Positions 925 to 45,750 of a DNA stretch of 45,909 nucleotides are shown here, piece by piece (within the stretch, counting starts at the first letter, position 1; each line of letters begins with the position of its first letter). Source of the stretch: Bacteroidota bacterium (GTDB taxonomy: Bacteria; Bacteroidota; Ignavibacteria; UBA10030). The translations under genes and the position numbers were made by a program. Under the pieces are notes generated by a model, which did no database searches, was not told the origin of the DNA, and saw only the letters and a list, made by a program, of their open reading frames with translations. The stretch covers positions 1-45,909 of the forward strand of contig JACVXU010000015.1 of the NCBI GenBank assembly GCA_015661185.1, read 5' to 3'.

Positions 925-2718
925 ATGCCAGAAATAGATATAACTGATAAAATCGGTTATACTCTGTTGAAAAAAGGGGTCATTGATTTTGAGACCCTTG
1001 AAAAATCGCTCAAGCTCAAGGATTCCGAGGAGAACAAGAAAAACCGGAAGAACCTCGGACAAATCCTTGTGACGGAGTTTGGTGCCGACCATGACTCGGT
1101 CTTTCGTGAAGTCGCAAACCTGTACGCGTTTCGTGAGGTCTTTCTGGCGGATGAAAAAACCGACGACACGCGCATCGCATTCATCAAGAAGCTCGTCGAG
1201 GTTTTGCCTGACCAACAGCGTGACATGATGGTGCAGGCCAAGATGGTGCCATTTAAGTACGATGAACGCCAGCCCGACAAGCTTGTAATCATCGCAGCGG
1301 ATCCAACGGACCGCAACCTGCCGGTTGTCGCCCGGAGTTTCAACGTCAAGAAGTACGAAATCTGCTACGTACGCCTGAAGGACCTCCAGGGTTTGATGGA
1401 GAAGATCGTCCCGGCTCAGAACGAGTTCCTGAAGCTCCTGAAGCAGGAGGGAGAGGTCACGATCAGCGATGGATCAACCGGCGACGAGGCAGTCGACGAA
1501 TCGGCGTTGGAAGCAGAAATCAGCAAGAGCGCGCTCGTGAATCTGTTCGAGGGTTGCCTGGTTGAAGCCGTTCGACGGGGAGTCAGCGACGTTCACATCG
1601 TGCCGTCCGAAGGGAACAAGACGAATTTCATGTTCCGCGTGGACGGAAACCTGCAGGTTTGGCACTGTCAGGAAAACACATTGCCTGAAGCTGTTTTGGC
1701 TGTCGTGAAAGACAGGACGAAGAATGTGGACCGGTTCGAGCGAGAAGCGTCGCAGGACGGATTCATACAGCGTGTCATTGACGGGCATCAGCTTCGTTTC
1801 CGTGTTTCTATCATGCCAATCGTGACCACGGAGTTCCAGCACAAGTTTGAGAGCGTCGTCATTCGTATCCTTGACGATAGGAAGGTTATCACTGACCTGG
1901 AGAAACTTGGCCTTCAGGGCCCTGCGAGAGGACTATTCTACAAGGCGATAGCAAAGCCGCAGGGTATCATCATCCTTACCGGCCCAACAGGATCCGGCAA
2001 GTCTACAACCCTCATTGCCGCCCTCTACCAGGTGATTGACCCTACATTGAATGTGCTCACGATCGAAGAGCCGGTGGAGTATATTATCAAAGGTGCCCGT
2101 CAGCTGAAGATCGGACCGAAGATGGGCTTCGAGCAGTCCATTCGGGGTATTTTGCGTCACGACCCTGACATCGTGCTCGTTGGTGAAATGCGTGACAAGA
2201 TCACTGCAGAGACTGCTATCAAGCTGGCAAACACTGGTCACCTGGTGTTCTCCACGCTGCACACGAACGACGCCCCCAGCGCGGTCGCCCGTCTCTACAA
2301 GATGGGGATTGAGCCATTTCTTATCGCCTATGCGATCAACATTATCGTCGCACAGCGTCTTATTCGGACATTATGCAAGATCTGCAAGGAGCCGGTTGAA
2401 GGGAGTGAACTGGATGACATGCTTAAATTTGGATTCAGTGAAGGCGAACTCCATGCTCACACGTTCTACAAGGCAGTCGGATGTGACAAATGCGGTGGAG
2501 GTTACAAGGGGAGAGCCGCAATTCACGAAGCCCTCTATTTCACAAAAGAAATCAAGACTCTGATTCTTAATGCGGGTGATAAAGTTGACGAAAATAGAAT
2601 ACGTGATCAAGCCGCCAAAGATGGAATGTGGACTCTGCGACGGTCGGGCATGGAGCGCATGATGGAAGGTTCCACATCTTTGGAAGAGATTATCTCCTCG
2701 ACAACTGAAGAAGACTAG
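925..2718 (+). CDS. PilB/GspE-type assembly ATPase
   Basis: 597 residues, the usual length for a PilB/GspE hexameric ATPase that powers pilus or pseudopilus extension from the cytoplasmic face. An N-terminal MshEN/T2SSE_N-like domain covers about residues 1-150. The C-terminal ATPase has Walker A GPTGSGKST (about 353-361), the Asp box around EEPVEY, Walker B DPDIVLVGEMRD (about 413-424), the His box STLHTND (about 443-449) and a four-Cys zinc knuckle (C484, C487, C520, C523). The start has a clear AAGGAGAG ribosome site at 912-919. It is followed by a strong terminator, so it seems to be transcribed separately from the pilT-like gene although it clearly serves the same machine. PilB versus GspE cannot be settled; the PilT and PilMNOP-like partners favour pilus. 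Confidence 0.93.
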   Translation: MPEIDITDKIGYTLLKKGVIDFETLEKSLKLKDSEENKKNRKNLGQILVTEFGADHDSVFREVANLYAFREVFLADEKTDDTRIAFIKKLVEVLPDQQRDMMVQAKMVPFKYDERQPDKLVIIAADPTDRNLPVVARSFNVKKYEICYVRLKDLQGLMEKIVPAQNEFLKLLKQEGEVTISDGSTGDEAVDESALEAEISKSALVNLFEGCLVEAVRRGVSDVHIVPSEGNKTNFMFRVDGNLQVWHCQENTLPEAVLAVVKDRTKNVDRFEREASQDGFIQRVIDGHQLRFRVSIMPIVTTEFQHKFESVVIRILDDRKVITDLEKLGLQGPARGLFYKAIAKPQGIIILTGPTGSGKSTTLIAALYQVIDPTLNVLTIEEPVEYIIKGARQLKIGPKMGFEQSIRGILRHDPDIVLVGEMRDKITAETAIKLANTGHLVFSTLHTNDAPSAVARLYKMGIEPFLIAYAINIIVAQRLIRTLCKICKEPVEGSELDDMLKFGFSEGELHAHTFYKAVGCDKCGGGYKGRAAIHEALYFTKEIKTLILNAGDKVDENRIRDQAAKDGMWTLRRSGMERMMEGSTSLEEIISSTTEED

Positions 2719-31797: not shown

Positions 31798-32577
31798 ATG
31801 AAGAAAAAACGTAAACCGAAGCTCGCGATATGGAAATTTTCCTCGTGTGACGGTTGCCAGCTGAGCTTGCTGGATTGTGAGGATGAACTCCTGGCTGTTG
31901 CAGAGAATATCGAGATTGCCAACTTTCCGGAAGCTTCACGCCAGGTTGTGAAGGGTCCCTATGACCTGTCACTCGTTGAAGGATCGATAACGACACCACA
32001 CGATGCCGAGCGCATCCACCAGGTGCGTCGGTCCTCCAAAGTGCTCGTCACGATTGGAGCCTGCGCGACAGCCGGAGGAATCCAGGCGCTGCGCAACTTC
32101 AAAGACGTACGCGAGTTCACATCGATCGTCTATGCGACTCCATCCTACATCGAAACTCTGAACAAGTCGACCCCGATCACCGATCACGTTTTCGTCGATT
32201 TTGAGCTTCGTGGCTGTCCCATCAGCAAGGTCCAACTTGTAGAGGTGCTGAGCGCCTTTCTGAATGACCGAAAGCCGACGACGCCGACGTACAGCGTCTG
32301 TCTTGAGTGCAAGCGCCGGGGAACGGTGTGCGGGCTCGTGACGCATGGCCCCCCGTGCCTGGGACCGGTGACACAGGCCGGCTGCGACGCCCTCTGTCCT
32401 TCCTATCATCGGGGATGTTTCGGCTGCTTTGGTCCTAAGGAAACTCCCAATACTTCATCGCTGGCGGAATACTGGAAGGGTCTGGGGATGAAGAACCTTG
32501 AGCTCCTGCATCTGTTCCGGAGCTACAACGCGTATGCCGAATCGTTCCGAAAAGAGAGCGAAGCACATGAAAAGTAG
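31798..32577 (+). CDS. hydD: Group 3b NiFe hydrogenase small subunit
   Basis: 259 residues, no signal peptide, so cytoplasmic. The proximal-cluster cysteines CDGCQLS (C17, C20), GACATAGG and RGCPIS are all present, and the C-terminal Cys-rich part ([31 protein letters not shown]) can hold two further 4Fe-4S clusters, as in HydD/delta of Pyrococcus-type sulfhydrogenase. It conducts electrons to the NiFe site of HydA. The stop overlaps the hydA start by 11 bases. Confidence 0.95.
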
Positions 32578-33850
32578 ATCCATCAAGGTTGACTATCTTG
32601 CCCGCGTCGAAGGTGAGGGGGGCATTCATGTTACGGTTCAGGACAAGGTCGTGACCGAAGTCCGGTTTGATATTTTCGAACCGCCGCGTTTCTTCGAGGC
32701 GTTTTTGCGCGGACGGATGTTTACGGAAGCTCCCGATATTACTGCCCGCATTTGCGGCATTTGCCCTGTCGCGTACCAAATGAGTTCCATCCACGCGATG
32801 GAGTCCGCGTGCGGCGTGTCTGTGACTGGACAACTGAGAGCCTTGCGTCGCTTGCTCTATTGTGGCGAGTGGATCGAGAGCCACGCCTTGCATATTTACA
32901 TGCTTCATGCCCCGGATTTTCTCGGGTACCAGGACGTGCTTCAGATGGCGAAAGACCACGGCGATGCCGTTAAGAAGGCGCTAAAGCTCAAGAAGACAGG
33001 AAATGAACTGGTTGCACTGCTGGGAGGAAGGGAAATTCACCCGATCAACGTGAGGGTGGGGGGATTCTACAGGTTGCCGACAAAGCAGGAGCTCAACGCT
33101 CTCGTCGACCGGCTGAAGTGGGCGCGAGACGCAGCTGTGGAAACCGTTTGGTTGACAGCGACATTCCCATTCCCGGACTTTGAGCGTGAATATGAATATG
33201 TCTCCCTCTGTCACGAGAATGAATACCCATTCAATGAAGGAAGGCTCATCTCGAACAAGGGGCTGAACATCCCGATTTCGGAGTATGAGAACAACTTCGC
33301 TGAAGAGCACGTGTCGTATTCAAATGCACTCCATTCAGTGCTCAGGAGCCGCGGCCCGTACCATGTCGGTCCGCTCGCGCGGTTCAATCTCAACTTTGAT
33401 CTACTTTCACCGGTGGCGAAGGAGGCAGCGACGGCGGCTGGCTTGGCCCTTCCGCTCAACAACCCGTTCAAGAGCATCGTGGTGCGGAGTGTGGAGACGG
33501 TGTTCGCGTGTGAAGAGGCCCTGCGGATCATACAGGAGTACGAGATGCCAGAGAAGCCGTTCGTCGATGTACGTCCAAAAGCAGGAACCGGCTATGGATG
33601 CACGGAGGCACCTCGCGGCTTCCTCTATCACCGGTACAGGCTGAACGAAAAGGGGCTGATCATGGACGCGAAGATCATCCCTCCGACATCGCAGAACCAG
33701 AAGACAATGGAGTTGGACCTCAGGGAGTTCGTCCCCCCCCGGCTTAACCTGACACAGGAAAAACTCACGTGGCAGTGTGAGCAGGCGATCCGGAACTACG
33801 ACCCCTGCATCTCATGTGCAACACATTTTATACGGTTGGATATTCGTTAA
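32567..33850 (+). CDS. hydA: Group 3b NiFe hydrogenase large subunit
   Basis: 427 residues from ATG 32567 (the frame from 32498 runs inside hydD). The NiFe ligand motifs are intact: L1 RICGICP (C63, C66) and L2 DPCISCATH (C414, C417). A seven-residue tail (FIRLDIR) follows H420 and would be removed by a maturation endopeptidase; such a protease gene lies at 34607. The [11 protein letters not shown] form and the soluble partner genes place it in group 3b (bidirectional, NADP-linked, sometimes sulfur-reducing). It produces or consumes H2 in the cytoplasm. It is the last gene of the hydB-cNMP-hydG-hydD-hydA unit. Confidence 0.96.
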
Positions 33851-42200: not shown

Positions 42201-43157
42201 ATGCAGAAGGAGCTTCGTGACATACGCTCTGACGTCTTACCGGCCTATAGGGCGCGGTTGACGAGGGAAGAGCTCAGGAACCGAGCCGGGGCGCTCAAAG
42301 AGCTGATGCGTGAATGTGTATTGTGTCCGCACGAGTGCGGTGCTCAGCGTCTGGAAGGCAGATACGGCGTGTGTCGGTCAACCTCGGATGTGATGATTTC
42401 GAGTGCTGGGCCCCACTACGGAGAAGAGGCTCCCCTGACAGGGGGGCGGGGCTCAGGAACGGTTTTCTTCACTTCCTGCAATCTCAAATGCACATTCTGC
42501 CAGAATTATGACGTAAGCCAGATGCGCTTGGGGAGGCGGGTATCTGAACGCGATCTGGCCGAAATCCTGCTTCGCCTGCAGAAAAGCGGATGTCACAATA
42601 TCAATCTGGTGACACCGACGCACATGACGCCCCAGATTGTCGGAGCTTTGGCCCTGGCGTCCGAAGGTGGACTCTCTATCCCGATTGTCTACAACTGCGG
42701 AGGATATGAGTCTACTCAGACGCTGAGGCTCCTTGAGGATGTGGTCGATATCTATATGCCGGATATCAAGTATTCTGACAGTGAAATCGCTCGAAAGTTC
42801 TCAGGTGGCCCGGAGTATTGGGATCTCGTTCGCCTTGCTGTAAAGGAAATGCACCGCCAGGTGGGGGATCTCGTTATGGATGATCGGGGAATTGCGAAGC
42901 GGGGATTGTTGATCCGTCACCTGGTTCTACCGAATGGGCTTGCAGGCTCGCACGCGGTCCTGGATTTCGTCGTTCAGAAGATCTCCATCGATTCATACAT
43001 CAACATCATGGATCAATACCGGCCATCATATCGGGCACTTCGATACGATCAACTGAGCAGAATGATCACGAGAAGGGAACATGCCGAGGTCCTGGAGTAT
43101 GCTTCCGGTATCGGACTGCATCGGGGATTTCCTGCTCATCGCCGCTCGGTGATCTAG
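42201..43157 (+). CDS. Radical SAM protein (PflX/pyruvate-formate-lyase-activase-like) in the hyp operon
   Basis: 318 residues. Radical SAM cluster motif CNLKC-TFC is in FFTSCNLKCTFCQN, preceded by an extra Cys-rich segment ECVLCPHECGAQ ... GVCRS that may hold a second metal or cluster. Later segments (NINLVTPTHMTPQIV, IVYNCGGYES, DIYMPDIKY) are those of the PflX/AmmeMemoRadiSam-related group. AGAGG lies six bases before ATG 42201. Members of this group have no firmly known substrate. It sits between hypB and hypF on one transcript, the hypF start directly following its stop, which suggests a role in hydrogenase maturation or in the same regulon; that is inference. It is not one of the canonical HypA-F proteins. 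Confidence 0.85.
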   Translation: MQKELRDIRSDVLPAYRARLTREELRNRAGALKELMRECVLCPHECGAQRLEGRYGVCRSTSDVMISSAGPHYGEEAPLTGGRGSGTVFFTSCNLKCTFCQNYDVSQMRLGRRVSERDLAEILLRLQKSGCHNINLVTPTHMTPQIVGALALASEGGLSIPIVYNCGGYESTQTLRLLEDVVDIYMPDIKYSDSEIARKFSGGPEYWDLVRLAVKEMHRQVGDLVMDDRGIAKRGLLIRHLVLPNGLAGSHAVLDFVVQKISIDSYINIMDQYRPSYRALRYDQLSRMITRREHAEVLEYASGIGLHRGFPAHRRSVI

Positions 43158-45559
43158 TTGAACAGACCAACTCCATATCGAGCAGAAGAATCAAATCTCA
43201 GACTGAAGGTAAGCATCCGGGGCGCTGTGCAAGGCGTGGGATTTCGCCCCTTTGTGTACCGTCTCGCCTCAGATCTGAAATTATCGGGATGGGTTTCGAA
43301 TACTGCCCAGGGTGTCTTCAGCGAAGTCGAGGGCAACAAGGATGTTCTCGATCAATTCCTGCTTCGCCTGCAACAGGAGAAACCATCCCGGGCGTTCATC
43401 CAGAGCCTTGAGTTCTCATTCCTCGATCCTGTCGGATTTACATCATTTGAGATACGAGAAAGCGAAAGCACAGGACCAAAGACCGCCCTCGTTCTCCCCG
43501 ACATCGCAACGTGTCCCGATTGCCTGGCGGACATCCTCGACCCCAACAATCGCCGCTACCTTTATCCTTTCACAAACTGCACGAATTGCGGACCTCGCTT
43601 CTCCATCATCGAATCGCTCCCCTATGATCGCCCGAACACTTCGATGAAACGATTCGTCATGTGCCAGGAGTGCCAGAGGGAATATGATGACCCTACGGAT
43701 AGAAGGTTCCACGCCCAGCCTACTGCATGCCCTGCATGTGGACCGCACCTGGAACTTTGGGACGGACAAGGAAAAAGTTTGTGTCACCATCAAGAGGCGC
43801 TCCTGGGTGCGACAAAAGCGATCCGGGATGGTGCGATCGTTGCGATGAAGGGGCTCGGCGGCTTTCACCTGCTGGTTGATGCGCGCGATGAAGAGGCGGT
43901 CCATCGGTTGCGTGAAAGGAAACATCGGGAGGAGAAACCCTTTGCCTTGATGTTCCCGTCGCTCGAAATGGTTGAAGAAGAATGCTCTGTTTCGGACTTC
44001 GAGAAACGCCTCCTCCTTTCGCCTGAATGTCCGATCGTTTTGCTTCAGAGAAAGGATAACAGGGAGCTCTACGGGAAGCAACTGTCGATTCTCGGCCTGG
44101 CAAAAGCTCTCGCGCCCCAAAACCCGAACCTCGGAATCATGCTTCCCTACACGCCACTGCATCACCTTCTCATGAGGGAATTGGGGCATCCTGTTGTGGC
44201 GACAAGCGGCAATCTCTCCGATGAACCAATTTGCATCGACGAGCGCGATGCACTCAAACGGCTGAACGGAATTGCTGACCTCTTTTTCGTCCACAACCGT
44301 CCGATCGTCAGACACATCGATGATTCGATCGTCCGGGTCCTCATGGGAAGAGAGCTCGTGATACGCAGATCGAGGGGATATGCGCCTCTCCCGATCCAAT
44401 TGCGCGGCGCCGGCGGCGCACCGGTCCTCGCTGTCGGAGCACACCTGAAGAACACCGTCGCAATTGCGGTCGAGGGAAACGCATTTATCAGTCAGCATAT
44501 TGGTGATCTGGAGACACATCAATCGCTCGAAGCATTTCGGAAAGTGAATGCTGATCTTCAGAGTATGTTTGGTGTGAAGCCAACATTGATGGTTTGTGAC
44601 ATGCATCCAGACTACTTTTCCTCGGTGGAGGCCCGCAGCACCGGTCGGGATGTGCTTGAAGTCCAGCACCATCATGCGCACGTGTTATCGTGCATGGCAG
44701 AAAACCAAATTGAGGGCGAAGTGCTCGGGGTTTCGTGGGATGGAACGGGATACGGGACTGATGGAACTGTCTGGGGTGGCGAGTTCCTGATCACGAGGGG
44801 GGCAGGATTCGAGCGGTTCGCCGCCTTCAAAGCATTCCGGCTCCCGGGTGGAGAAAAGGCCATTAAGGAGCCTCGCAGGACTGCGGCTGGTCTTCTCTAC
44901 GAGGTATTCGGAGAAGATGTGCTCCGAGAAAGGGATCTGGCCCCGATGTCCGAGTTCTCGGTCGCAGAATTGAGTATAGTCCTCCAGATGCTGAAGAATG
45001 GAGTTCAAGCTCCCTGGACCTCGAGTGCGGGTAGGCTCTTTGATGGGATTGCGTCAATCATGGGCCTCCGCCACCGCAATAGCTTTGAGGGGCAAGCAGC
45101 GATGGAGCTCGAGTTCGCTCTGATCGGAGAAGCCTCAGAGCAGACGTATCGATGCGCCGTCCAGAGATCTCTTGACGAGGGAACCGGGGCGCAGAACGCG
45201 GGTCGAAGCCCAGCAGTGCGTCCCTTGTATGTTGTCGATTGGTCCCAGATGGTCAAAGATGCGTGGCAGCATCTCTTATATCAAAAAAATTCCATAATGC
45301 GCTTGTGGAAGCTCTTGTGGACGTTGTGCGTGAGGCGGGGCTCAAGCGTGTCGTTCTCACCGGCGGGTGTTTCCAAAACAGGTATCTCACCGAGCGTGCT
45401 GTCCACCGCTTGCGTTCTTCGGGATTTCAGCCTTACTGGCATCAACGGGTACCGCCGAACGATGGAGGTATTTCTCTGGGGCAAATCTACGCGGCCCGAG
45501 CCATGAACAGCGGCCGACACCGTGTGGATAATGAATTTGTGAAGGAGGGAGCCGAATGA
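43158..45559 (+). CDS. hypF: Carbamoyltransferase HypF, split by a -1 frame change near the C-terminus
   Basis: HypF makes the thiocarbamate on HypE that becomes the CN ligand of the NiFe site. From TTG 43158: acylphosphatase domain (GAVQGVGFRPFVYRLA), two zinc fingers (CPDC...CTNC and CQEC...CPAC), the YrdC-like domain (AIRDGAIVAMKGLGGFHLL; SGNLSDEPI) and the Kae1-like domain (VQHHHAHVLSCMAE; DGTGYGTDGTVWGGEF). The frame continues to a stop at 45506, but after about 45260 the conserved end (FHNALVEALVDVV, VVLTGGCFQNRYL, PPNDGGISLGQ) is in the -1 frame, ending at 45559. A slippery heptamer A-AAA-AAT lies at 45284-45290 in the right phase. The end of the TTG frame overlaps the next gene by four bases (ATGA). 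Either recoding, mutation or an assembly error. Confidence 0.9.
45284..45290 (+). other. Slippery heptamer A_AAA_AAT at the hypF frame change
   Basis: In the hypF reading frame the codons CAA AAA AAT give the heptamer A-AAA-AAT. A -1 slip here would place the ribosome in the frame that encodes FHNALVEAL, the conserved HypF C-terminus. The run of seven A is also a prime place for a replication or sequencing slip. Confidence 0.4.
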
Positions 45560-45750
45560 ACCTCATCTCGGGACAAATCGAAGAGATCTACGTACACGAA
45601 GGGATGACGATAGGGAAAGTGAACGTTCGTGGAGCCTTCCTCAGGGTTCCATTGACCTTCCTGATGGACGCAAAGATCGGTGATACGATTGTGATCGAAT
45701 CAGGCGTGGCTATCTCCAAAACTGATCCAGAACACCCAAGCAATATCTGA
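45556..45750 (+). CDS. HypC-like paralogue lacking the N-terminal Cys
   Basis: 64 residues. The pattern SGQIEEIYVHEGMTIGKV ... FLMDAKIGDTIVIESGVAIS follows the HypC/HupF fold (cf. IPGKI ... AkVdf ... akvGDyvlVHaGfAi) but starts MNLIS, so the Cys2 that HypC uses to carry the Fe(CN)2CO group and bind the large subunit is missing. Its ATG overlaps the stop of the hypF C-terminal frame. A canonical hypC follows 11 bases later. It could be a specialised chaperone subunit or a decayed copy; the intact frame and coupling favour a used protein. Confidence 0.75.
   Translation: MNLISGQIEEIYVHEGMTIGKVNVRGAFLRVPLTFLMDAKIGDTIVIESGVAISKTDPEHPSNI

Follow-up and report, generated by a model that had tools for sequence, protein, structure and literature searches.

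An apparent out-of-frame deletion between short direct repeats, rather than programmed recoding, interrupts hypF in a genome of the Ignavibacteria

The carbamoyltransferase HypF delivers the carbamoyl group from which the cyanide ligands of [NiFe] hydrogenases are made, as described in two earlier publications (PMC4506123, PMC12130793). The family is captured by the model TIGR00143 and has solved members (3vth, 4g9i, 3ttc) against which a candidate gene can be compared. Where the conserved sequence of such a gene is divided between two reading frames and a slippery motif lies in the overlap, the closest described systems are the bacterial -1 recoding sites with A-rich heptamers, as in IS elements or dnaX. 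A-rich heptamers are able to slip in bacteria; in E. coli, a motif that lacks stimulators reaches an efficiency no higher than roughly ten times a background close to 0.05%, and the stimulatory structures start some 4-10 nt past the slippery motif (PMC4066793). For hypF itself, no report of a frameshift was found in the literature at the level of titles and abstracts. Frames can also be separated by deletion, and the loss of a stretch bounded by direct repeats, with one copy left behind, is the typical geometry of slipped mispairing between short direct repeats. PMC4134008 deals with replication slippage.

The stretch of DNA analysed here (the window), a complete contig of 45,909 bases, belongs to a metagenome-assembled genome of 4.33 Mb in 445 contigs with an estimated completeness of 99%. 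On its forward strand, an open reading frame of 782 codons at 43158-45506 (the 0 frame) codes for the acylphosphatase domain, the zinc fingers, the YrdC-like domain and most of the Kae1-like domain of a HypF protein; it matches positions 2-639 of the 741 positions of TIGR00143 with 757 bits (cut-off 466). Its domains follow the order of known HypF carbamoyltransferases, and its motifs and the make-up of the operon (hypA, hypB, hypF and a HypC-like gene) agree with them too; it differs from them in that the C-terminal 74 or so residues are out of frame and that seven codons plus one nucleotide are absent before the FHN motif. As the preliminary description had proposed, the 0 frame departs from recognisable family sequence at about 45261, and the Kae1-type C-terminus continues in the -1 frame, where an open reading frame at 45239-45559 matches TIGR00143 positions 665-740 (E = 1.1e-18). 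The Pfam domain HypF_C_2 is likewise divided, its positions 1-161 lying in the 0 frame and 159-241 of 241 in the -1 frame, so that no single frame of the window gene holds a complete Kae1-like domain with both GGxFQN and NDGG. These two motifs (GGCFQN and NDGG) occur in the -1 frame only. Both belong to the Kae1-like domain, to which the full-length relative aligns in the solved HypF 3vth, and a 0-frame product lacking them is predicted to have no activity. In the -1 frame, family-like sequence is present from about 45260 onwards, some eight codons ahead of the candidate heptamer, reading CVAASLISKKFHNAL where the 0 frame reads DWSQMVKDAW, and it runs to the original hypF stop codon at 45557 with no additional stop or indel.

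The TGA of this -1 frame overlaps the ATG of the next gene (ATGA, 45556-45559). That gene, at 45556-45750 on the forward strand, is intact and codes for a HypC-family paralogue of 64 residues (MNLISGQIEEIY...; PF01455, 30.7 bits with a cut-off of 28.5) that has counterparts in relatives and sits between hypF and hypC. HypC needs a cysteine at position 2; the paralogue carries asparagine there. Numerous relatives within the family and order keep an MN(L/I/V) start, in genes often located directly upstream of an ordinary hypC, and the protein may thus represent a separate HypC-like factor that lacks the Cys. In one genome of the same genus (G002; L008, about 1034-1138, minus strand) the Cys-less HypC-like gene has an in-frame stop within its matched part (R*ALLRVS...); the adjoining hypC-like match is uninterrupted. 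The contig terminates at 45909 inside hypC, and hypE was located on another contig (C369:3867-4862 of G000). This assembly yielded no hypD, nor did two of the related ones (G005 and G001), but the gene is present in three other genomes of the genus; the missing hypD is probably an assembly gap. Between hypB and hypF, at 42201-43157 on the forward strand, lies a radical-SAM activase-like gene that was matched by several activase models, all far below their cut-offs.

In all five further genomes of the genus that were compared, hypF continues without interruption through the frame-switch point. The nearest relative (G005; public contig QYQB01000127.1, locus L071) shares 93% protein and 91% DNA identity in this gene, and its protein reads DWSQMIKDVWADSRRCVVTSLISKKFHNAL at the place where the window changes frame. 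When the two genes are aligned end to end, 22 gap bases fall in the window and none in L071, all of them at one spot. A wider set of relatives points in the same direction: among 79 pattern matches, 73 have a distance of exactly 25 residues from the D of the DW motif to the F of FHN, and of the other six, five are wrong-place matches or have a DT before the DW at 25, only one (L105) being truly longer. Read through a -1 slip, the window has a spacing of 18 residues, in agreement with the previously suspected shortness of this stretch. In 90 of 102 distinct hypF loci the FH(N) motif lies within the main open reading frame, the remaining 12 apparently being cut contigs, other spellings of the motif or the window itself; no readable relative requires a shift at the junction, and a conserved two-frame arrangement was thus not encountered. 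A net loss of 22 nt equals seven codons plus one nucleotide and therefore accounts for the short spacing and the frame switch alike. The A7 tract that in the window is followed by T at 45283-45290 is also there in the intact gene of the close relative. In L071 the tract is unchanged and reads TCA AAA AAA TTC, coding for S-K-K-F of the conserved SKKFHNAL.

The manner in which the 22 nt might have been lost is indicated by the intact allele. In L071 an imperfect direct repeat of 11 nt (AAGATGTGTGG / AAGGTGCGTGG; 9 of 11 positions identical) bounds the missing stretch, its two copies starting 22 nt apart; the window keeps one copy (TGCGTGG at 45260-45266). No other position in the L071 gene has such a repeat pair at offset 22, and only about 0.02% of all combinations of position and offset (offsets 10-59) reach a match of 9/11. 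Within the window itself no direct repeats were found at the junction, the repeats being visible only in the relative. BLAST writes the gap as 1 + 21 nt, a reading by two events that gives slightly better local matches than a single gap of 22 nt; the single gap is more parsimonious, and it leaves the alanine codon GCA following GTG, as in the outgroup L008, although the sequence does not fix the exact breakpoints. The small out-of-frame deletion that had been placed near 45255-45275 is thus borne out as a net difference of 22 nt with repeat boundaries. It is very probable that hypF of the window has undergone a net deletion of 22 nt at about 45254-45270, most simply in one event by slipped mispairing between two imperfect copies of AAG(A/G)TG(T/C)GTGG. 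Such a deletion would have removed seven codons plus one nucleotide and put the last 74 or so residues of the 0-frame product, the last tenth of the gene, out of frame, and the product, having lost GGCFQN and NDGG of the Kae1-like domain, is predicted to be inactive. The net loss, the repeat bounds and the single remaining copy are as in other repeat-mediated frameshift deletions, with the difference that here the event is reconstructed from one relative and its breakpoints are approximate.

With respect to the age of the break, the sequence downstream of the junction still diverges in the pattern of the ancestral frame. The differences between window and L071 are distributed over the three codon positions as 8, 5 and 17, showing a third-position bias, and dN/dS is 0.25 in the ancestral frame versus 1.07 when the same stretch is read in the 0 frame of the window. 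A raised replacement rate as a sign of decay was not seen in the conserved tail in comparison with L071 (13 synonymous and 6 replacement codons there, 101 and 48 in the part upstream of it; p = 1.0). Taken together, the lack of excess replacements and the third-position bias indicate that hypF was intact through most of the divergence of the two lineages and that the break is recent or not present in the organism.

In the genome assembly, neither another copy nor a strain variant of hypF was found. Other matches to TIGR00143 look, by the segment of the profile they match, like a stand-alone acylphosphatase, a YrdC/Sua5 protein and a TsaD-like protein. Genes for the large subunit of [NiFe] hydrogenases with their cofactor-binding cysteine motifs are present, among them one at 32498-33850 in the window and one, coding for 497 residues, on another contig. 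Since the only hypF of the genome is thus interrupted while several [NiFe] hydrogenase genes are seemingly intact, the interruption is probably of recent origin, a polymorphism or an error of the consensus.

The last of these, by which misassembly or a mixture of strains would have removed the 22 nt from the metagenome consensus and the hypF of the organism would be intact, we regard as unlikely. A long-standing loss of the sole hypF would be odd next to hydrogenase genes that look intact, there is no signature of decay downstream, and the contig ends only about 640 bases past the junction, in a region where strain mixture might have led to an incorrect consensus. However, a loss of 22 nt is unusual as a short-read sequencing error, and direct repeats of 7-11 nt are too short to be collapsed in a de Bruijn assembly. 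Moreover, just one version of the region is present in the assembly, and the approximately 6.5 kb of the window that can be aligned to the relative showed no further coding indel. From these features of the sequence, the deletion is probably real in the sampled population.

If the deletion is real, slippage might still supply some product. Low-level slippage of the ribosome or of RNA polymerase on the A7 tract, arising after the deletion, would yield a little full-length HypF that is seven residues shorter, and there is precedent in that RNA polymerase slippage at A tracts can rescue interrupted genes such as tssM with its run of A11 (PMC4256274), and that E. coli polymerase was found to make about 0.39% insertions at the A7 run of one gene (PMC6260861). 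However, the bacterial polymerase needs more than seven A for a measurable effect in a reporter (PMC6260861), so that by analogy transcriptional slippage at the A7 of hypF is likely to be weak, and the product would be without seven residues that the relatives keep. Such adventitious rescue is therefore very unlikely, and that the deletion allele would be tolerated because slippage on A7 supplies enough of the shortened HypF, as a natural recoding rescue of hydrogenase maturation, is more doubtful still.

As to programmed recoding, an A-AAA-AAT heptamer of the X-XXY-YYZ type is indeed present at 45284-45290 inside the overlap, and the 0-frame codons CAA AAA AAT (45282-45290) place it in the correct phase for a -1 slip, as had been stated beforehand. 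Because the A7 tract is ordinary Lys-Lys coding sequence in L071, it was the deletion only that moved the heptamer into slip phase, a by-product amounting to a one-in-three coincidence. A downstream stimulatory structure could not be substantiated: folds of 50, 80 and 140 nt of the RNA past the heptamer were none of them better than those of shuffled sequences (z = -0.93 for 80 nt and +0.29 for 140 nt) and none was common to the relative, and a hairpin that can be drawn at 45291-45321 directly abuts the heptamer and is absent from the predicted RNA of the relative. Neither was a Shine-Dalgarno-like motif of the list in PMC4066793 seen in the 30 nt upstream. Hence, programmed -1 frameshifting at a correctly phased, slip-prone heptamer, joining the frames into a functional HypF, is extremely improbable and the earlier suggestion of recoding is not upheld, given the ancestral role of the tract, family-like -1 frame sequence ahead of it, a joined product seven residues short in a stretch of fixed length, a sole nearby hairpin outside the usable spacing and the lack of any relative that needs the shift. 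Compared with the known bacterial sites, the window shares the phased heptamer but differs in having no stimulator, in a shift site that is not conserved and in an overlap that was created by deletion.

The out-of-frame deletion in hypF therefore illustrates that an ordinary Lys-Lys-Phe stretch can be shifted into an apparent slip phase and so mimic recoding. Outside this genome its significance is small. If the deletion is real, however, the organism, or a strain of it, may be incapable of producing the cyanide ligands for its [NiFe] hydrogenases, and a metabolic reconstruction based on the hydrogenase genes alone would then be misleading.
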